Shown: positions 48,611 through 58,079 of the stretch, piece after piece
Layout of the letters: the number at the start of each line of letters is the position of its first letter
How positions within the stretch are numbered: the first letter of the stretch is position 1
DNA from: Shouchella clausii
GTDB lineage: Bacteria > Bacillota > Bacilli > Bacillales > Bacillaceae_D
Length of the DNA stretch: 64,000 nucleotides
Direction of reading: 5' to 3'
Assembly (NCBI RefSeq): GCF_001598215.1
Contig: NZ_BCXJ01000001.1
Span: 992,001 to 1,056,000 of the forward strand
Made by a program: the position numbers and the translations under genes
Notes under the pieces: model-generated
Database searches by the model: none
What the model was told of the DNA's origin: nothing
What the model saw: only the letters and a program-made list of their open reading frames with translations

Positions 48611-48820
48611 TAAAAAGCTGAATGCTCGTACTGGTTGGCTTTCCTATTTACGGAAAAATGGCTAAAACGTGTATCAGCAAAGAGGAAGTTTCGCAAGAAT
48701 TGTAAAGAAACGACTATGTGATTCGAAAGTTTCGTAAAGTTCTCCCTTTTTTGGCCGTTGTATGTTTGCCATTTGCTATACTAATCGTGAAGCATTTCAT
48801 TTCTTATGAGGAGGGCCAGT

Positions 48821-50443
48821 ATGAAAAGAGTGATTCAAAAAAGGGCGATTCAGTCGGTTATCATTTTTGCTAGTTTTACAGTAGGCATTCCGGCGTTGGC
48901 AGAAAGCATAAGCGATCCTCCACCCGTATTGGAACCAAGTGACCCGAATGGAAAACGTGTATTGTTTGATAACAGCCATGGGCAAACAGCTGGTCAATCT
49001 GATTGGGTCATAGACGGAGCCTTTTCGGACTTTGCGGATGCGCTAGTGGAAAACGGGTACTATGTCAAGGAACACCGTAGTGCAGAACCGCTAACTAGCA
49101 CCGATTTAGACGGGTACGATGTGTTTATTATTCCTGAAGCACAAATTCCATTTAAGACTGTTGAGCAAGAGGCGATTGCCTCGTTTGCAGAAGAAGGGGG
49201 CGGCGTGTTTTTTATTGCTGACCACTACAATGCAGACCGTAATTTTAACCGGCTTGACTCAAATGAAATTATGAACGGTTGGCGCCGAGGTGCTTATGAT
49301 GACATAACAAAAGGGATGAGCAACGAAGAAAAAGAAGCACTCGAAGGTGTCGTAAGTTCAGACTGGCTTGCCGAAGAATTTGGCGTTCGTTTTCGTTACA
49401 ATGCCATTGACCATACAGTAGCAGATACGATTGTTCGCTCAGAAGAGGTGTTTGGCATTACGGAAAACATTAGCGCTCTCTCCATTCATGCTGGATCAAC
49501 GCTTGCGATTATTGACCCAAACGTCGCTAAAGGCGTTGCTTATTTGCCTGATGGCCTGACGCCGGAAGCGAATAAATGGAACAACGCAGTCGACCAAGGT
49601 GTTTATCACGGCGGCGGAATCGAGGAAGGTCCTTATGCGGCTATCGGAAAAAAGGGGTTAGGCAAAGCAGCCTTTATCGGCGATTCATCGCCAGTTGAGG
49701 ATTCGACCCCAAAATACCGCAACGAAGAACATGGTGGCCAAAAGCGTACGTATGATGGATTTATCGATCAAGACAATGGTGCTTTCCTCGTGCAGGTGGT
49801 CGATTGGCTTGCTGAACAGGAATCCTATACCAACTTTACCGAAGCAGGAATCCCTTTAGACGAACCGTCTCCGCTTTTGGACATGGAACAGCCTGAAAAG
49901 ACGACAGAACCACAGGCTGAGCCATGGCGACAGCCGCAAGGGGAGTATCGATGGTATGACCGTTCTACTTTTGCGGCCGGCTCGTTTGGAAGTGGAAAGG
50001 AAGCACCGCTAGAAGTGGAATATGGTTTAGAAACGCCTGATGCGCTTCCATTAGGAGGGCAGACGTTTTCTGTGACTGTAGAGCTCCGTCATTTAACGCC
50101 AAACCAAACGGTCAACAGCCTTGACATGCAAGTGTACTTGCCGGGAGGACGTTCGATTTCGCAGATTCAAGGGGAGGATGGAAGTTGGCCTAGCTCTTAC
50201 AGCTACCATCATATCGGTACGTTGATCGCTGATGCTACAGGGACAGCAACGAAAACGGTCACGATGCGATTGAACCCGTCCGTGGAGGCCGATTCGGCGA
50301 TGATTCGATTGCGCAATGACCGCCAAAATGTCGTGACGCAAACAGTTGCCCTTACTGCTGCCAGCGAAAAGGTGATGAAACACCCGACGATTCAAAAGAG
50401 CTTAAAACGAAAAAGCGTGCCAGCGGCAATAGCAGGAAGCTAG
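48821..50443 (+). CDS. Secreted protein with GATase-like (GIFT/DUF4350-type) domain
   Basis: GAGGAGGG ahead of ATG 48821 sets the start (540 residues). A signal peptide ends PALAES. The mature N-terminal part (about 45-330) looks like a class I glutamine-amidotransferase-like fold: KRVLFDNSHGQ, DGYDVFIIPEAQIPF, GGGVFFIADHYNAD and GKAAFIGDSSPVED. It has no Cys nucleophile, so it is probably a binding or hydrolase derivative. The C-terminal part (about 385-510) is beta-rich and Ig-like. I do not know its function. Exported, likely cell-surface or released. Monocistronic. Confidence 0.7.
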   Translation: MKRVIQKRAIQSVIIFASFTVGIPALAESISDPPPVLEPSDPNGKRVLFDNSHGQTAGQSDWVIDGAFSDFADALVENGYYVKEHRSAEPLTSTDLDGYDVFIIPEAQIPFKTVEQEAIASFAEEGGGVFFIADHYNADRNFNRLDSNEIMNGWRRGAYDDITKGMSNEEKEALEGVVSSDWLAEEFGVRFRYNAIDHTVADTIVRSEEVFGITENISALSIHAGSTLAIIDPNVAKGVAYLPDGLTPEANKWNNAVDQGVYHGGGIEEGPYAAIGKKGLGKAAFIGDSSPVEDSTPKYRNEEHGGQKRTYDGFIDQDNGAFLVQVVDWLAEQESYTNFTEAGIPLDEPSPLLDMEQPEKTTEPQAEPWRQPQGEYRWYDRSTFAAGSFGSGKEAPLEVEYGLETPDALPLGGQTFSVTVELRHLTPNQTVNSLDMQVYLPGGRSISQIQGEDGSWPSSYSYHHIGTLIADATGTATKTVTMRLNPSVEADSAMIRLRNDRQNVVTQTVALTAASEKVMKHPTIQKSLKRKSVPAAIAGS

Positions 50444-50467
50444 GGGATTTTCCCCTAGCTTTTTTTG
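50438..50467. terminator. Terminator overlapping the stop of the secreted protein gene
   Basis: A perfect ten-base stem (50438-50447 with 50451-50460), TTT loop, T7 tail. The stop codon of the plus-strand gene is inside the stem and the minus-strand ade gene ends in the tail. Confidence 0.8.
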
Positions 50468-52176
50468 TTTACAAACAATGGAACGACTTTGCCTTTGTTA
50501 ACATCGATTAACCCAAAATCAGTAATTTTCAGCGCAGGGCTAACTGGCAAAGAGAGCGTCGATAGGGACATAATCGGATTGTAATGCTTATAACCTAATG
50601 CCGTTAGCGCTTTAACAAACGCTTCGACTTTTGGTGCAAGCTCGGCTAGGGGCGCTTCAGAAAGAATACCGCCGACTGGCAGTTCCAGCATCGCTTTCAC
50701 TTCCCCGTTCTCTACTGCCGCACAGCCCCCTTGTGCTTGGATGACCGCGTTCGCTGCACAAACCATGTCTTTGACGTTTGCGCCAACAACGAGCAAGTTA
50801 TGATTGTCATGGGAATACGTTGTTGCCACTGCTCCGCGCCGTATAATGTCTCCGGCGATCAGGCCGTGGGCACGCCCACCTGTTTTGCCGTAGCGTTCAA
50901 ATGTGGCAATAAGACGAAGGCCGCTGTCTTGCCATTGTAGGAGGCCGTTTGCGACAGGCACTTTTTCCTGTGTTTCCTTCGTAAAGGTCGAGCCATCTGC
51001 CACATTCATCACCCGGCAAACGTGCATGCCGTCTTGACGGTCGGCAACCACGTTAAAATCCTCCTTTTTCAAAGGAGCAAGCTTGACGCTTTCGTAAAAA
51101 TGTTGTGGAAACTGTTTTGGCTTTGGCGTTTGTTTGTACGGGCTAGTTGCATCATAGGCGAGCACACCATTTTTATAAACAGCAGAAAAAACAAATTGGC
51201 CGTCTTCTGCAAGAAGACTGAAGTCAGCGATTTTTCCAGGAGCAATAGCACCACGGTCTTCAAGTTTCATCCGCTTGGCAGGTGCCATTGTACAAGCATA
51301 AATGACGTCCTCAAACTTCATGCCTGCTGCGAGCGCTTTGTTTGCGAGAACATTTAAGTGGCCACGTTTATATAGGGAATCAGCCATGACATCGTCAGTA
51401 ACAAAGCAAAAATGTTCGCGGGCGTCGTTTTCAATCAAAAAGGAAAGCACGTCGTCGGTCATCGATTTTTCTTGGATTTCTAAAAACATGCCCGCTTTAA
51501 TACGTGCTACCATTCCTTCTCTCGTTTGGTGTGTATGATCAGACCCAATTCCAGCGGCAACAATTTGATGAAGGTCGAGCCCTGTCAACTTTGGCACATG
51601 CCCTTCGATAGGAAGAGCAGGGTAGGAACGCCGGAAATGTTTGAGGATTTGGTTTGTTTTTGAATCAGGTTGTGAAATGACATCGACATAGTTCATGATT
51701 TCCCCTAAGCATTGGATGTCCTCTGTGTCCATTAATTCGTCCATTTCTGCGATTCCGATTGTGCCGCCAGTCGTTTCCAAACTTGTAGCGGGAACAGAAC
51801 TAGGGATCGCGTATTTCATATCAACTATACAGGCGGCGCTTGCCTCGATCATGGCTTTAATGCCTTCGATCCCAAACACATTGGCCATTTCATGAGGCTC
51901 TGGAACGATCGTTGTCACGCCATTTTGCAAAAGTGCCCAAGAAAAGGTTTCTGGTGTGACCATTGAGCTCTCGATATGCAAATGGATATCAATTAAGCCA
52001 GGAATCATTTGCTGGCCTTGGCCATCAATAGTGGCATTGGCTTGGATCGATTCAAGTTCGTCGCTGTGCCCGATCGCCACAAATCGGCCTTGGTCAATCG
52101 CGACGTCGCTGGCGATAAACTGTTGTGTATAGGCATTATAGACGCGTACGTTTTTCACTAAAGTATCTACATACAT
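50455..52176 (-). CDS. ade: Adenine deaminase
   Basis: The start is ATG 52176 behind GGAGG; the open frame upstream to 52248 is not needed. The 573 residues match Bacillus subtilis Ade (577). It hydrolyses adenine to hypoxanthine and ammonia. Amidohydrolase metal motifs are visible: GLIDIHLHIESS (near residue 72), the Ade-specific PEPHEMANV (near 100) and VTDDVMAD (near 260). It is the last gene of a six-gene minus-strand operon with an ABC importer and a nucleoside hydrolase, which implies that adenine arises from imported nucleoside. Confidence 0.94.
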   Translation of the reverse strand: MYVDTLVKNVRVYNAYTQQFIASDVAIDQGRFVAIGHSDELESIQANATIDGQGQQMIPGLIDIHLHIESSMVTPETFSWALLQNGVTTIVPEPHEMANVFGIEGIKAMIEASAACIVDMKYAIPSSVPATSLETTGGTIGIAEMDELMDTEDIQCLGEIMNYVDVISQPDSKTNQILKHFRRSYPALPIEGHVPKLTGLDLHQIVAAGIGSDHTHQTREGMVARIKAGMFLEIQEKSMTDDVLSFLIENDAREHFCFVTDDVMADSLYKRGHLNVLANKALAAGMKFEDVIYACTMAPAKRMKLEDRGAIAPGKIADFSLLAEDGQFVFSAVYKNGVLAYDATSPYKQTPKPKQFPQHFYESVKLAPLKKEDFNVVADRQDGMHVCRVMNVADGSTFTKETQEKVPVANGLLQWQDSGLRLIATFERYGKTGGRAHGLIAGDIIRRGAVATTYSHDNHNLLVVGANVKDMVCAANAVIQAQGGCAAVENGEVKAMLELPVGGILSEAPLAELAPKVEAFVKALTALGYKHYNPIMSLSTLSLPVSPALKITDFGLIDVNKGKVVPLFVNKKS

Positions 52177-52247
52177 AATAAAGTCAGTCCTCCAACTTCC
52201 GCAATGGACAATGGTTGTATTTCGCTTTCGTATAGACATAGGAAGCA

Positions 52248-53303
52248 TTATTGGGTAATAACGATTTTATTGCTTGGAAAATGGAGGGCAACAGGCGTGC
52301 CAATGTCAAGGGGCGTTGCCATGTCAGTATGGACTGTAAACGTACCGGCTGCCGTTTCTACGATACATTGGTAACTACGGCCGAGAAAAGTGCAGACGAG
52401 CACTTTTCCAGCTATGTGATTTTCAGCGTCCCCTTGGTTTAAATCGAGAACAAGCTCAATGTCGTCAGGGCGGATCGCTCCTGTCATGCCTAATTCAGAA
52501 CCGGCATGTTTGGCGACTGAAAAGCGTTGTGTTCCCGAGGCAAATGTCCAATAAGCTCCGTTGTCTTCCCTGTCTGAGAACGGCAAGAAGTTCTTGAAGC
52601 CGATAAATTCAGCAACAAAGCGCGTTTTTGGATAGCTGTAAATATGGGACGGGGCATCAAGCTGTTCGATGATCCCTTTATTCATAATCGCGACATTGTC
52701 GGAAATCGAAAAGCATTCTTCTTGGTCATGAGAGACATATACAGCTGTGATGCCGAGCTCTTGTTGAATGCGGCGAATTTCCACGCGCATTGTTTCACGC
52801 AAGTTTGCGTCCAAGTTGCTCAACGGTTCATCAAACAACAACAGGTCCGGTTCAATCACTAATGCCCGGGCGATAGCGACACGCTGCCGTTGCCCGCCGG
52901 AAAGTTCTTTTGGAAACCGATTTTCAAAACCTGTTAAATTAACGACATCGAGCACATGGGCAATCCGTTTTTTCATTTCGCTTTGCGTTTGTTTGCGCAT
53001 TTTTAAGCCAAAGGCGATGTTGTTATACACAGACAAATGGGGAAAAAGCGCATAATTTTGGAAAACGAAGCCAAAGTTCCGTTTCGAAACGGGGACGCGT
53101 GTGTAATCTTTGTCGTTAAACAAAAAGCGGCCCGATTTGGATTCGAGAAAGCCGGCAATGAGTCGCAGTGTCGTCGTCTTTCCACAGCCACTTGGTCCTA
53201 GCAAGGATAGGAGCTCGCCTTTCTCAATTTTTAAATCAAACTGTTTTAAAATGTCTTGTTTTTGGTAAGCGACCGTCACTTGGTCTAATGTTAGTAAAGC
53301 CAT
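52248..53303 (-). CDS. PotA-type ABC importer ATPase
   Basis: The start is ATG 53303 behind GGAGGTC (351 residues). Walker A GPSGCGKTT (near 35), signature LSGGQRQR, Walker B LLLFDEPLSNLDA and switch His VSHDQEE are intact, and the C-terminal TOBE domain (about 260-350) is that of the spermidine/iron/2-aminoethylphosphonate group. It powers the two permeases encoded upstream. The neighbours (nucleoside hydrolase and adenine deaminase) argue that the cargo is not a polyamine but a purine nucleoside or related compound. Confidence 0.9.
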   Translation of the reverse strand: MALLTLDQVTVAYQKQDILKQFDLKIEKGELLSLLGPSGCGKTTTLRLIAGFLESKSGRFLFNDKDYTRVPVSKRNFGFVFQNYALFPHLSVYNNIAFGLKMRKQTQSEMKKRIAHVLDVVNLTGFENRFPKELSGGQRQRVAIARALVIEPDLLLFDEPLSNLDANLRETMRVEIRRIQQELGITAVYVSHDQEECFSISDNVAIMNKGIIEQLDAPSHIYSYPKTRFVAEFIGFKNFLPFSDREDNGAYWTFASGTQRFSVAKHAGSELGMTGAIRPDDIELVLDLNQGDAENHIAGKVLVCTFLGRSYQCIVETAAGTFTVHTDMATPLDIGTPVALHFPSNKIVITQ

Positions 53304-53366
53304 GAGAGACCTCCATTCTTTTACAAAAGTTGCAATCAAGCATAGGAGAAACGGGACCCCGTTTCA

Positions 53367-54158
53367 TTACCGTTTCGTAAAATACGACAAGCCGACTAGC
53401 CTTTCAATTGCAAACATCAATAAAGCTGTTAATGCCATTAGCATCACCGAAATGGCAGCAACCGTTGGATCAAAATAATGTTCGACGTACGTCAGCATCT
53501 GGATAGGCAGTGTCGAAAGCCCTGGACCGGTAAGAAAGACGGAAATATCGACGTTGTTAAATGACTCTAAAAATGCAATGAGCACTGCAGCGATAATGCC
53601 AGATTTAATATTAGGCAAAATGACTTTGAAAAACGCGCCAAGGCGGCTTGCACCGAGGCTCATCGCTGCTTCTTCAATCGAGAAGTCAAACGTGGCCATA
53701 CTAGAAGCAATCACACGGATAATAAAGGGCAGCATCAAAATCGTATGACCTACAAATAGCGCGACTTCAAGTGGAAGTTGATAAGCAACAATTAAATAGC
53801 GCAAAAATGTAAAACCAAGTACGGTGCCGGGAATGAGTATCGGCGAAACAAACAACACATTTAACAGCGCTTTTCCTGGAAACTCGTAGCGGCTTAATGC
53901 ATAGGCAGCTGGAATCCCAAGCAACAGTGCACACAGGTTGCCTAACAAGCTAACGAGCATCGAAAGCTTGAACGTGTCCATGAAGGCAGACACAGCAAAA
54001 ATATTCGCGTACCATTCAAGGGAAAAGCCACTTGGCGGAAACTGCAGCACTGTACTAGGCTCAAAAGAAGCGACCGAAATAATAAAGAGCGGCCCGAGCA
54101 GAAATAAAAAAATGAGAAAGGAAACAAACCCAAGGCCGATATGTTTTGATTGGTTCAT
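53367..54158 (-). CDS. PotC-type ABC permease
   Basis: A 263-residue permease with six membrane helices and the EAA loop IEEAAMSLGASRLGAFFKVILP (near residue 165). AAGGGGG precedes the ATG, four bases after the first permease gene. It forms a heterodimer with the PotB-type subunit. Confidence 0.92.
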   Translation of the reverse strand: MNQSKHIGLGFVSFLIFLFLLGPLFIISVASFEPSTVLQFPPSGFSLEWYANIFAVSAFMDTFKLSMLVSLLGNLCALLLGIPAAYALSRYEFPGKALLNVLFVSPILIPGTVLGFTFLRYLIVAYQLPLEVALFVGHTILMLPFIIRVIASSMATFDFSIEEAAMSLGASRLGAFFKVILPNIKSGIIAAVLIAFLESFNNVDISVFLTGPGLSTLPIQMLTYVEHYFDPTVAAISVMLMALTALLMFAIERLVGLSYFTKR

Positions 54159-54162
54159 CTGT

Positions 54163-54984
54163 TTACCCCCTTGGATTTAAAATCGCTGCGATTTTTTGGA
54201 AAAGGCCGGTCACTACAAACGTGATGACAATCATAATGGTTGCAATCATCGCAGCAGCATGCCAATCATTTAACGTAATCGCATTTTGATATAAAAATGT
54301 CGAAATGACCCGTTGTTGGCCGCCGAGAAGCGCTGGCGTTGTATAGGCGGTAAAACTGCCTACAAATACGAGTGTGCTGCCAATTACAAGGCCAGGCACA
54401 CAGAGTGGCACCATCACTTTTAAGAATGCTTTTGCTTTTGAGGCGCCAAGACTTTCAGCAGCTAAAAACAAATCAGCATCAATGTTCTCCATCACGCCAA
54501 CTAATGTAACAATCATGAGTGGCAAAAATAAATGGATAAGGCCGATAGCGACAGCGGCTGGTGTATATAGAATCGATAATGGTTCGTGTATAAGACCAGT
54601 TGCCAAAAGAAACTCGTTAAGCAAACCATTGCGGCCGAGAATAATCATCCAGCTAAAAGACCGAACGACTGGGCTAACGAGCAATGGGAAAATGGCGAGC
54701 ATGAGCATGATTGCTTTTTTGCCGCCTTTTAACTTAGAAATGTAATAAGCGGCGGGAAAAGCAAGTATGACGCAGCAAAAAGTGGTCAATAGAGCGACAA
54801 AAAGAGTCGTCCATAAAATTTCTAAAAAGTAGGCATCACCTAAAAAACGAAAATAACCGTTTAAGGAAAAGCTGCCGTTTTCGACAAATGTCGAGCTGAT
54901 GGTGAGCACGAGTGGAATAAGCATAAAAACAGTTAAAAACAGCAGCCCCGGAATGAGCAAAATCATGCGCATTGAACGGTTCAC
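54163..54984 (-). CDS. PotB-type ABC permease
   Basis: GAGGTGA eight bases ahead fits GTG 54984 (273 residues); the TTG at 54990 is too close. Six membrane helices, EAA loop FLAAESLGASKAKAFLKVMVP (near residue 175, LGASKAKAF). It forms the translocation path with the PotC-type permease. It lies 56 bases downstream of the nucleoside hydrolase gene. Confidence 0.92.
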   Translation of the reverse strand: MNRSMRMILLIPGLLFLTVFMLIPLVLTISSTFVENGSFSLNGYFRFLGDAYFLEILWTTLFVALLTTFCCVILAFPAAYYISKLKGGKKAIMLMLAIFPLLVSPVVRSFSWMIILGRNGLLNEFLLATGLIHEPLSILYTPAAVAIGLIHLFLPLMIVTLVGVMENIDADLFLAAESLGASKAKAFLKVMVPLCVPGLVIGSTLVFVGSFTAYTTPALLGGQQRVISTFLYQNAITLNDWHAAAMIATIMIVITFVVTGLFQKIAAILNPRG

Positions 54985-55040
54985 GAACAAATCACCTCAC
55001 AGAAAAGAATGGCCCGGCATCGAAATGCCTAAGGCCATGT

Positions 55041-55973
55041 TCAGTTTTGGATTGAATGCAAAAAGTACGATAAAAATGCATCACTGTCGATCTCAGTGGC
55101 AACTTTAACATTTGCCGGTTTTCCTAAGCGCTTTTGCCTGTCGCATACCGTTTGTCCATCGCAAAATTGGCTGTTTGTTTCTACTTCTACAAACATCTCG
55201 TTTAAATAGAGCAATTCGGGTTTTAATGCATAAGCAACTGCAAGGGGATCGTGGAGGGCACAAGCTGCCACGTTGTTCCGCGCTTCATACCGTTTTATAT
55301 AGTCTGCGGTGCACATTTTGATAAATTGCTTGACAGGTGAGTCAACGAGTGATTCAATGTCTCGGCTAGTAAGGAGTGCTTTGCGGGTAACATCTAAACC
55401 GACTTGCACAATGGGGGTGAAGCCAGCATGGATCACCTCGCGCGCTGCCTCAGGATCGACATACATGTTGTACTCAGCCACAGGGGTGACATTGCCATGT
55501 GTAAACGCGGCACCACCCATATAGACGACGCCTGCCACGAGTTTTGGCAAATCAGGGCATTTTTCAAGCGCTAACGCCAAGTTTGTCAGCGGTCCTGTCA
55601 TGACAAGCGTTAGTTCGCCAGGATAACGTTTTGCCTGTTCGATTATATAATCAGGCGCATAACCGTCAGCAGGCTGTGCCGTTGGCTTAAAATGAGGCAA
55701 AGCGCCGCCAAGGCCATCATTGCCGTGGACGCTATGTTCAAAAAAGCAAGGGCGCCGAAGTGGAGCGTGAGCGCCTTGGATAACGGGAATGTCGCCCTCT
55801 TTATGAATGAGTGTTAACACTTTTAACGTGTTAACAGTCGCTTTTTCTAAAGAGACATTTCCGTTCACTGTCGTAATCGCAAGCAGTTGGGCATCGATGC
55901 TCTTGGCGGCAAGGATAATGGCAAGGGCGTCATCTACGCCTGTGTCAACGTCAAGTAGGATCTTTTTGGCCAC
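55041..55973 (-). CDS. Inosine/uridine-preferring nucleoside hydrolase (IunH family)
   Basis: A 310-residue enzyme starting at GTG 55973 behind AAGGAGG. It cleaves the N-glycosidic bond of nucleosides to base and ribose. The calcium-binding Asp cluster DVDTGVDDAL (residues 8-17), the ribose site EYNMYVDPEAA near 166 and HDPLAV near 241 are intact, so it should be active. The family includes purine- and pyrimidine-preferring members. Lying between the binding protein and permease genes of the importer, it suggests a nucleoside cargo. Confidence 0.93.
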   Translation of the reverse strand: MAKKILLDVDTGVDDALAIILAAKSIDAQLLAITTVNGNVSLEKATVNTLKVLTLIHKEGDIPVIQGAHAPLRRPCFFEHSVHGNDGLGGALPHFKPTAQPADGYAPDYIIEQAKRYPGELTLVMTGPLTNLALALEKCPDLPKLVAGVVYMGGAAFTHGNVTPVAEYNMYVDPEAAREVIHAGFTPIVQVGLDVTRKALLTSRDIESLVDSPVKQFIKMCTADYIKRYEARNNVAACALHDPLAVAYALKPELLYLNEMFVEVETNSQFCDGQTVCDRQKRLGKPANVKVATEIDSDAFLSYFLHSIQN

Positions 55974-55985
55974 TTCAATGCCTCC

Positions 55986-57032
55986 TTAATTGGCAATTTC
56001 TTTATTCCAGCGGTCAATCCATTCAGCTGATTCGCTGTTTACGTACTCCATGTCAAGGAGGTTTAGCGCCTCAATCGTTTCTTCCCCATACGTGACACCT
56101 TCCGCTTCCTGTTCAGACAACTCGACATGGATGTTCACTGGGGAGTCGACTTTCGCTTTTGCAGACGCCTCCTGGACTTCCTTGCTTAAATGCCAATTGA
56201 TAAATGCTTCTGCTAGTTCTTTGTTATCGCTGTCTTTAACGACATTGACTGTATTCATAACTGCGTAGCCGCCTTCTGTTGGTGTAATGAACTCAGCTTC
56301 AGGGACAGCGGCTTGCAAATCATGAAAATACATTTCCATAAATGGACCAGCAGCAATCTCACCTTGGGTAAACATGTTGACGAAGTCCGATGATTTATCG
56401 TATTCTTTGACAATATTTCCTTTCAGGTCGGCAATGGCGGCAAATGCTCCATCGGCATTGAATTCGTCATGTCCTGCTACGATGGAAGCGGCATCTAAAA
56501 ACATCGGTCCTGTTGTTGATGTAATGGAAGGAATCGTCAAATTGCCTGCAAGAGAGTCATTCCATAAGTCGCTCCAGCTTTCAATTGGACCATTCGTTTG
56601 CTCAGGATTATAGGCAATGCCGAATTGGCCAATCGTGTAGGCCGGTCCGTATTCTTCGCCAAGAGGGGCTTTTGCTATATCGTAAAGGTTGTCAATATTT
56701 TCGATGTTGCTGCGGTCAATTTCAGCGAATAAGCCTTCCTCGATGCCTTGCTGGGCGTAATAATCGGATAAATAAACGACATCTACATTAGCAGTTCCTT
56801 GGCGGATTTTGTTAAGGCGTTCTGCATTGTTGCCGATATCGACGACAATGTTGACGTTGTATTCTTCTTCAAATGGCTTGTAAACTTCTTCCTTAAAAAA
56901 ATCCTCTGCAAATCCCCAAGTGGAAATGACAAGGTCTGTTGGTTTTTCACTGTCGTCTGCCGAAGTGGAGCATGCGCTAACAGCGACCAAGCTTGAAGTG
57001 ATCACAAATAAGCAAGAAAGATGTTTTTTCAT
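55986..57032 (-). CDS. PotD-type substrate-binding lipoprotein, putative nucleoside binder
   Basis: A 348-residue lipoprotein (signal ending AVSAC, Cys 21) of the spermidine/putrescine-binding family, with LVISTWGFAEDFF at the start, the DVVYLSDYYAQQG hinge (near 93) and GPAYTIGQFGIAYNP (near 125). Polyamine binders carry acidic residues for the cation; I cannot map the pocket well enough to say whether they remain. AGGAGG precedes the ATG. It heads the six-gene operon and should determine the cargo. Confidence 0.88.
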   Translation of the reverse strand: MKKHLSCLFVITSSLVAVSACSTSADDSEKPTDLVISTWGFAEDFFKEEVYKPFEEEYNVNIVVDIGNNAERLNKIRQGTANVDVVYLSDYYAQQGIEEGLFAEIDRSNIENIDNLYDIAKAPLGEEYGPAYTIGQFGIAYNPEQTNGPIESWSDLWNDSLAGNLTIPSITSTTGPMFLDAASIVAGHDEFNADGAFAAIADLKGNIVKEYDKSSDFVNMFTQGEIAAGPFMEMYFHDLQAAVPEAEFITPTEGGYAVMNTVNVVKDSDNKELAEAFINWHLSKEVQEASAKAKVDSPVNIHVELSEQEAEGVTYGEETIEALNLLDMEYVNSESAEWIDRWNKEIAN

Positions 57033-57068: not shown

Positions 57069-57120
57069 AAAAAAAGAAGACACACCTGTAGCAGCATTTG
57101 CCATCTACAGGTGCATCTTC
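57069..57120 (-). terminator. Leader hairpin (attenuator-like) of the purine salvage operon
   Basis: A 16-base stem with a two-base internal mismatch (57076-57091 with 57105-57120) and a 13-base loop is followed, on the minus strand, by seven T (57069-57075) and then after about 25 bases by the ribosome site of the binding-protein gene. There is no room for a promoter between T run and ribosome site, so transcription of the operon must read through this terminator. Confidence 0.75.
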
Positions 57121-57195
57121 CTTATGTAAACATAAGCAAAAGCAACCGTATTGAAAAGAATCGTAAATCCTCAACCAGACATGTCCAGCCTGCAT

Positions 57196-57537
57196 TTACG
57201 AAGTAGAAAAAAGAATGTTTGTAAAAGCCCATTGCGTTTTTGCATCATAATCACGCAGCACAACCTCGATCGGGTCGTGGAAGTGCGTCGCTAATTGTTC
57301 TGCAAGTTTCCGTTTATAGAGAAGGGAAAGATGAAAATCAACTTCCATTTTTAAAGAAGGCACTTCTCCTTCAAGTGCGGTTGAACGGGCTGCCCGTTTA
57401 TGTTTCGCTTGAATGGTTACAAGTGCCCCAGAGATGGAAACTTTTAATAAAGTTGTGCCAACACCGAACATTTCTTTTGAAACATCATTATATAGATGAG
57501 CCAACATTTTTTTATTTTCGTTTGTATCGCCTATCAT
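57196..57537 (-). CDS. DUF2294-family protein
   Basis: AAAGGTGATGGG ahead of ATG 57537 sets the start (113 residues). The sequence pattern, an amphipathic N-terminal helix, EMFGVGTTLLKVSISGALVTI and YKRKLAEQLATHF, matches the DUF2294 family of small bacillar proteins with unknown function. It lies upstream of the purine operon on the same strand; read-through could join them, but a CGTAAAT/ATTTACG hairpin right after its stop may end the transcript. Confidence 0.75.
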   Translation of the reverse strand: MIGDTNENKKMLAHLYNDVSKEMFGVGTTLLKVSISGALVTIQAKHKRAARSTALEGEVPSLKMEVDFHLSLLYKRKLAEQLATHFHDPIEVVLRDYDAKTQWAFTNILFSTS

Positions 57538-57773
57538 CCCATCACCTTTAAACGAAAAACAAATCATTGTAAACTATTGTACATAAATTGCTAGTGGTAT
57601 GCAATAAAATGTTCGGATTTAATTGGGTGTAATTTTCTTGAAGTCGAAAAAGGATATCAAAAACAAGCAAACGACGAACATTGATGATAGGAAACGATAT
57701 ATTTTATTTTCTGTTTAGATTTTTATCTAATTAGATTATAATGAAATTAATAAGTGGAAAGGAGAATGGCAAA

Positions 57774-58079
57774 ATGATCATCAGCCAACTAGAGAAGGAA
57801 AACATCATACGTCATTTTATAGGGAAAGATGGCCGCTTAAAGACGATGCCAGCTAAATTCAAAAAAAAGCTCATTCTGTTAGAACATATGTTAATGGGTT
57901 TAGAGGAGGATGTCGTTTATGAAGAACGGGAGATTAACGCTCATATTCAGTCTTTTCATGATGACTTTGCCACTATCCGTAGAGCATGGGTAGATACGGG
58001 GTTTATGGAAAGAAAAGAGGGGCGCTACACACTTGTGTCGCCAGCGAAGCGGCCATCTTTTTTTAACGAAACTAATTAG
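57774..58079 (+). CDS. DUF2087-family small winged-helix-like protein
   Basis: AAAGGAG nine bases ahead of ATG 57774 gives 101 residues. The family stretch HFIGKDGRLKTMPAKFKKKLILLEHML (IGKDGRLKTMPAK, about 16-28), then EREINAHIQSFHDDFATIRRAWVDTGFMERKEG, is that of DUF2087, a wHTH-like domain often found fused to regulators. A DNA-binding role is likely but unproven. Followed by a terminator. Confidence 0.8.
   Translation: MIISQLEKENIIRHFIGKDGRLKTMPAKFKKKLILLEHMLMGLEEDVVYEEREINAHIQSFHDDFATIRRAWVDTGFMERKEGRYTLVSPAKRPSFFNETN

Follow-up and report, generated by a model that had tools for sequence, protein, structure and literature searches.

What does a polyamine-type ATP-binding cassette (ABC) importer carry when its genes stand in one row with those of a nucleoside hydrolase and an adenine-deaminase-like enzyme, and how might such a row of genes be switched on? 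The question is raised by a locus of Shouchella clausii within a stretch of 64,000 nucleotides (NZ_BCXJ01000001.1, positions 992,001 to 1,056,000; GCF_001598215.1), which we call the window and whose own numbering is used below. A preliminary description had placed a six-gene operon at 50455-57032. The six genes are indeed present, but this extent was too short, since a seventh gene (57196-57537) and an RNA element upstream were left out. We found that the locus is a conserved seven-gene set, probably for the import and breakdown of purine nucleosides, and the best explanation as a whole, which we consider quite probable, is that its seven genes form an operon, presumably co-transcribed, for the uptake and breakdown of purine nucleosides, with attenuation by an RNA and the small protein ORF7. 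In this scheme, a lipoprotein and a PotABC-like transporter would import a purine nucleoside, for which adenosine or something close to it is the likeliest candidate, an IunH-type hydrolase would cleave it to base and ribose, and an Ade-like enzyme would take the amino group off the base. Expression would be held back by a terminator that separates the first gene from those of the transporter, and the conserved RNA together with ORF7 would release it when purine or nucleoside is present.

The six genes described earlier lie on the minus strand at the coordinates given for them, and their families were borne out by Pfam and NCBIfam assignments. The substrate-binding lipoprotein (55986-57032; SBP_bac_6), which has a PotD-like fold and is proposed to bind nucleosides, is followed by the IunH-type nucleoside hydrolase (55041-55973; PF01156, IU_nuc_hydro, 318.9 bits), a PotB-like permease (54163-54990; BPD_transp_1, nearest PotB), a PotC-like permease (53367-54158; BPD_transp_1, nearest PotC), a PhnT2/PotA-like ABC ATPase (52248-53339; ABC_tran and TOBE_2), of which an internal ATG near 53303 may be the start, and an adenine-deaminase-like metal hydrolase of a DHT subfamily, here called Ade (50455-52176; Amidohydro_1 and Adenine_deam_C). 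The longest open reading frame (ORF) of Ade extends to 52248; the internal ATG at 52176 was our choice, guided by ortholog starts, and with this start the gaps range from 4 to about 71 bases, as had been claimed. The same gene order was found in other genomes. Among the best 80 of 133 confirmed relatives, which come from Shouchella and other Bacillaceae, Paenibacillus and Brevibacillus, the binding protein, IunH, two permeases, ATPase and Ade followed one another in one order and on one strand at 78 loci, and at the two exceptions (L007 and L032) the contigs stop short of the third gene. This indicates that the arrangement is not due to chance. In S. tritolerans (L003), the binding protein has exactly the sequence found in the window (100% identity).

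The seventh gene, ORF7 (57196-57537, minus strand), is the first of the set, and encodes a conserved protein of 113 amino acids that is a candidate RNA-binding antiterminator. Its longest ORF covers 57196-57567, with 57537 as the best start. By tblastn, 79 of the 80 loci have a homolog immediately ahead of the gene for the binding protein; in the last one (L067) the contig offers no more than 216 bases of upstream sequence. An alignment of 29 ORF7 sequences showed a nearly invariant basic KH-R-RS segment and an LRD(Y/F)D motif that they have in common. AlphaFold2 predicted a small alpha/beta fold with a mean predicted local distance difference test score (pLDDT) of 89.0, for which the PDB gave no match at an expectation value (E) of 0.001 or better. 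Pfam returned sub-threshold matches alone, and we therefore rejected naming ORF7 by Pfam or by fold.

Between ORF7 and the binding-protein gene lies a conserved leader RNA that covaries in the family and ends in a terminator (57072-57198, minus strand; 62.1 bits with our covariance model). In the window, the terminator hairpin occupies 57076-57120 on the same strand and is followed by a U run. Of 79 intervals separating ORF7 from the binding-protein gene, 76 held a strong terminator-like hairpin by a score of our own, compared with 7 of 395 mononucleotide-shuffled gaps. Ahead of the terminator stand two hairpins: hairpin 1, with the loop GAUYUAUC in most relatives, and hairpin 2 (57122-57135, minus strand, in the window), with the loop GUUUAC. 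To describe the pairing, 34 sequences picked from 78 extracted ones, two of them cut at the 5′ end, were aligned with MAFFT. Standard pairs filled 94.4% of the alignment cells, a percentage that is partly by construction because helices 2 and 3 were taken from the RNAalifold consensus and helix 1 was added by hand from single-sequence folds; the double-sided changes, found in 17 of 24 pairs, are not by construction. None of 500 shuffles reached the observed values, and slid versions of the alignment were at most 59.0% paired. Helix 1 was the weakest, with 81.7% of its cells paired. We also considered that hairpin 2 and the terminator might form only at each other's expense, and make no firm claim for it: five of six minimum-energy folds of single sequences draw the 3′ arm of hairpin 2 at least partly into the terminator base, but in a column-based count only 17 of 34 sequences had at least three extra pairs, a figure that probably contains a one-base register problem.

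ORF7, the RNA and the binding protein occur in the same genomes. At thresholds that were set at gaps in the score lists after the lists had been viewed, the same 33 of 299 genomes of class Bacilli carried ORF7 (E up to 1e-25), the binding protein (E up to 1e-100) and the RNA (E up to 1e-4), as judged by comparing the genome lists by eye. The next genome below the threshold stood at E 1.8e-19 for ORF7 and at E 1.6e-68 for the binding protein. The 33 RNA matches at E up to 1e-4 fell one to a genome, and each adjoined ORF7. When the limit was relaxed to E 0.1, the RNA model matched in 47 of the 299 genomes, and the matches at E 0.005 or worse were either reverse-strand shadows of strong matches or isolated.

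Weaker homologs of ORF7 stand in other surroundings. Seven of their neighbourhoods were fetched, leaving out G567, G667 and the second copies in G559 and G607; within L188, which holds two copies, one was considered. One of the seven (L185) proved to be the same operon, RNA included. Purine-type degradation genes were found near ORF7 in five of the other six. In L188, xanthine-dehydrogenase-type genes precede ORF7 and an allantoinase/dihydroorotase-like gene follows it; a xanthine permease and an allantoinase-like gene follow it in L189, and an allantoinase-like gene in L190; UbiD, microcompartment shell and AdeC-like genes follow it in L186; and a gene of the allantoate-amidohydrolase/hydantoinase family precedes it in L187. 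The allantoinase-like proteins near ORF7 homologs scored just under the AllB cut-off. In all five, a GUU(U/C)AC hairpin and a terminator were identified by reading in the gap after ORF7, three of them also by script. The RNA model gave 41.7 bits in L186, 35 bits in L187, a weak match in L189 (E 0.12) and E 1.1 in L188, and no match at the expected place in L190; under the stricter filters of the genome search, the elements of L186-L190 were absent from the list of RNA matches. In L186 (7735-15363), the ORF7 homolog is followed by a UbiX-like gene, recognised by eye, and then by the UbiD, shell and AdeC-like genes, making this a possible purine-related microcompartment locus.

The link between hairpin and ORF7 was also seen from the side of the terminators. 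In 115 loci longer than 6 kb, most of which were fetched because they bear the operon, 636 terminator-like sites were counted, and a GUUYAC-type hairpin stood in front of 145, a count in which neighbouring T runs may register one terminator twice. All of these except one, which lies elsewhere, were no more than 250 bases behind an ORF7 homolog (144 sites in 77 loci). Eight of 85 loci with an ORF7 homolog gave no match to hairpin plus terminator, L187, L190 and L191 among them.

In our analysis, antitermination that depends on ORF7, on a purine or on both appears most likely, and a pure riboswitch is its main rival. We tentatively propose, with a confidence that falls somewhat short of an even chance, that ORF7 belongs to a purine-responsive family of RNA-binding antiterminators, of which it would be the first to be recognised. 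The protein would bind the GUUUAC hairpin, and in most relatives also the GAUYUAUC-loop hairpin, in its own transcript, block the terminator and turn on the purine genes that follow, which are the importer operon here and allantoinase-like, xanthine permease or UbiD/microcompartment genes elsewhere in the class. The leader RNA might instead be a purine-sensing riboswitch, with ORF7 merely the first co-regulated gene and encoding, for example, an accessory enzyme or chaperone. The strongly conserved loops and the classic terminator speak for such a riboswitch. However, no RNA match at E up to 1e-4 was found away from ORF7 in the 299 genomes, which would be unusual for a riboswitch, and the hairpin and terminator are kept ahead of other genes in five of the six distant ORF7 loci. 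Moreover, no Rfam match exceeded the gathering score in the window, seven relatives gave only two unrelated matches elsewhere in their loci, and low-threshold scans of two leaders returned sub-threshold matches of which none was plausible; a known riboswitch was rejected on these grounds. We regard a riboswitch acting without ORF7 as somewhat unlikely.

Several observations count against control by ORF7 and the RNA. Of the three helices, RNAalifold recovered hairpin 2 and the terminator in its consensus and missed hairpin 1, which is poorly kept in Shouchella, where four or five of its seven pairs fail. Hairpin 2 appeared in the minimum-energy fold of one of six single sequences, its 3′ arm being at least partly in the terminator base in the other five. 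The post hoc choice of thresholds bears on the shared set of 33 genomes, as 40 genomes carry ORF7 at E up to 1e-8 (seven more) and 35 carry the binding protein at E up to 1e-50 (two more); the 33 genomes come from four families and are thus not independent events. Finally, the sixth distant ORF7 locus, L191, had no recognised purine gene and no GUUYAC hairpin.

As for the transporter, a nucleoside as its putative cargo is well supported by gene context. On pSymB of Sinorhizobium meliloti, a binding protein, two permeases, an ATPase, a nucleoside hydrolase and an adenine deaminase are in linkage, in the vicinity of a phosphoribosyltransferase and an NCS2 permease, and the binding protein there is 35% identical to that of the window; the records of S. 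meliloti 1021 and Rhizobium rhizoryzae held no annotation at the corresponding locus. In Qingshengfaniella, the transporter stands with an amidohydrolase of the TRZ/deoxyadenosine-deaminase type, a nucleoside hydrolase, a phosphoribosyltransferase and a relative of Ade. The binding protein was further detected at E up to 1e-30 in 24 of 398 Bacillota genomes. Nineteen neighbourhoods, mostly outside class Bacilli, were fetched among carriers of less similar binding proteins, and five of them (L146-L150) have permease, permease, ATPase, binding protein and Ade. The gene after Ade in all five encodes a nucleoside phosphorylase (PF01048) in place of the hydrolase of the Bacilli, the search for phosphorylases having been restricted to the surroundings of these loci. 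This replacement by an unrelated enzyme indicates that the glycosidic-bond step can be filled by either enzyme. Elsewhere among the 19, Ade is followed by a TRZ-type amidohydrolase in L155, such an amidohydrolase occurs without Ade in L154, and Ade is present in L151 and L156; the other ten gave no Ade or IunH match.

Other findings weigh against a nucleoside cargo. The host also has one BmpA-type (PF02608) protein and two NupC-type carriers. Two alphaproteobacterial relatives (L085 and L143) have no nucleoside enzyme nearby, and others stand beside a carbamoylase-like gene and an Ade-like gene. On plasmids of Agrobacterium vitis, Neorhizobium and Martelella (L084, 9001-17505; L142, 7917-16321; L144, 8007-16399), a carbamoylase-like hydrolase, an XRE regulator, an Ade-like protein and an alanine racemase lie beside the same type of transporter, a linkage that suggests a second cargo for it.

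The enzymes were then weighed for what they say about the imported compound. IunH scored 318.9 bits against a PF01156 cut-off of 34.2 and fell below the cut-offs of all four NCBIfam equivalogs that it matched. Its DxDxGxDDA motif was found in 79 and its HDP motif in 78 of the 80 orthologs; the two failing sequences are short ORFs of 219 and 127 amino acids. The identity of Ade as an adenine deaminase appears less certain than the other assignments. The operon Ade, present at E up to 1e-110 in 34 of the 299 class genomes (G244, which has the TRZ variant, in addition to the 33 that carry the full set), reached 401.1 bits with TIGR01178, under the cut-off of 472.5. At another place in the host genome, a true AdeC (617 bits) is encoded next to a YerA-like protein. 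At that locus (L115, 6145-10182; G000:C5), the YerA-like protein is without the IESS motif, and ORFs that by eye resemble a glycine-betaine-type ABC system lie upstream on the same strand.

The preliminary description had the nucleoside hydrolysed and adenine then deaminated. This remains plausible as a route, but a divergent Ade in a genome with a true AdeC elsewhere means that the base may not be plain adenine. The cargo could be a modified purine nucleoside, for example an N6-substituted one or another analogue, from which the DHT-type Ade would remove a group other than that taken by canonical adenine deaminase. In favour of this, and against plain adenine, DHT replaces the DHE of true adenine deaminases in 78 of 78 operon copies and in eight of eight Ades from loci of more remote Bacillota, as against DHE in five aligned alphaproteobacterial copies and in the AdeC and YerA-like protein of the host; a nearby Arg is changed to Gln in the aligned DHT proteins. 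The motifs HxH, E, H, H and D, presumably of metal-ligand type, are kept in the operon Ade, so ordinary adenine deamination is still feasible, and we consider a modified cargo unlikely.

A box, CCGAAC, lies upstream of ORF7 (57608-57620, minus strand) and raised the possibility that PurR controls the operon, with the terminator merely insulating ORF7. The box is a true PurBox half-site match that is kept in several relatives, where the start of a TTCG box precedes it by about 61 bases. However, the PurBoxes of Bacillus subtilis have a spacer of 16 or 17 bp, according to PMC8789054, and a genome-wide count of exact half-sites showed no enrichment (13, with 12 in the control). Neither the spacing nor the counts fit PurR, and its control of the operon was rejected as distinctly unlikely. 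In the host, another exact AAATCCGAACATT box was noted about 100 bases before a gene that by eye resembles an M20-type amidohydrolase (L106, near 1950-2150; G000:C4:470152).

The last alternative concerns the transporter family itself. The predicted structure of the binding protein (mean pLDDT 89.7) retrieved 4edp first from the PDB with Foldseek, with PotD and PotF types among the best. PotD contacts spermidine through Glu36, Glu171 and Asp257, as given in PMC4096761. In a profile alignment, in which the PotD numbering was carried over by an inferred chain offset of 23, Glu171 corresponds to Thr173 and Asp257 to Asn260, and the stretch of Glu36 falls outside the alignment; with respect to these residues, the polyamine-binding acids are not kept at two of three positions. 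Thr173 and Asn260 were invariant in 33 aligned binding-protein sequences. In a wider alignment, they were also present in most relatives without nucleoside enzymes, so that the two residues argue against polyamines and not specifically for nucleosides. A transporter for polyamines or another PotD-family cargo, with the purine genes as mere neighbours, would suit the PotD fold and the permeases and ATPase, whose nearest systems are those for polyamines and 2-aminoethylphosphonate, but it is very improbable, as all transporter scores lie below the equivalog cut-offs, the linkage to nucleoside enzymes extends across phyla with replacement of an enzyme, and two of the three spermidine-contacting acids of PotD are replaced. 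The support for the nucleoside cargo first put forward in the preliminary description is thus indirect, drawn from this linkage, the swap of hydrolase for phosphorylase and the two replaced acids, the last not being nucleoside-specific.

The window also contains two neighbours of the seven genes. A DUF2087 protein is encoded at 57741-58079 on the plus strand, divergent from ORF7, and a secreted-looking protein of 545 amino acids at 48806-50443 on the plus strand, convergent with the end of ade.

Purine nucleosides are a well-supported candidate cargo for a transporter branch that is often annotated as a spermidine/putrescine importer and occurs in Bacilli, other Bacillota and rhizobia. The claim of a new cargo class needs care, because PMC4052901 already names a LacI regulator group, AdeR, for nucleoside utilisation, so that some lineage may already be covered by a computational prediction. 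Listings of open-licence articles in PubMed Central, searched for the operon itself, for presumed S. meliloti locus tags, and for work on nucleoside cargo in the polyamine family, on adenine deaminase structure and on DUF2294/MpsC, yielded no description of the operon. The pair of ORF7 and RNA is more novel than the transporter part, and it is this pair that the earlier label of a compact salvage pathway left out. With its terminator, it makes a compact and testable regulatory unit, consisting of a small orphan protein and a covarying RNA without an Rfam match, that travels together and is apparently reused before different purine-degradation genes. Should ORF7 act on the RNA, it would represent an antiterminator family that is new, and a regulator could be named for many purine loci.

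Compared with known systems, the transporter is like the PotABCD spermidine/putrescine importers in the fold of its binding protein (1pot, template modelling score 0.73 by query and 0.78 by target length), its two permeases and its PotA-like ATPase; it is unlike them in the replacement of two polyamine-contacting acids, in its linkage to nucleoside enzymes and in its scores under the equivalog cut-offs. BmpA/NupABC are nucleoside ABC importers. They share the proposed cargo of the operon transporter, but their binding proteins belong to PF02608, whereas that of the operon belongs to SBP_bac_6. Ade resembles AdeC (TIGR01178) in domain make-up and metal-type motifs and departs from it in its lower score and the change from DHE to DHT. 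IunH resembles the IunH/Rih hydrolases (PF01156), being over the Pfam cut-off with its motifs kept, and differs from them in staying under the four equivalog cut-offs. MpsC/DUF2294 (PF10057) gave weak matches to six of 29 ORF7 sequences (best E 0.0025), all under the cut-off and none from the ORF7 of the window. In the attenuated hutP and pyrR operons of Bacillus, a small regulator gene comes first, a terminator follows, and genes for transport or catabolism come after it. No relation of ORF7 to those regulators was detected, and it lacks a PDB fold match at the limit given above, but the layout is alike, with the regulator-like ORF7 and then a terminator ahead of the target genes.

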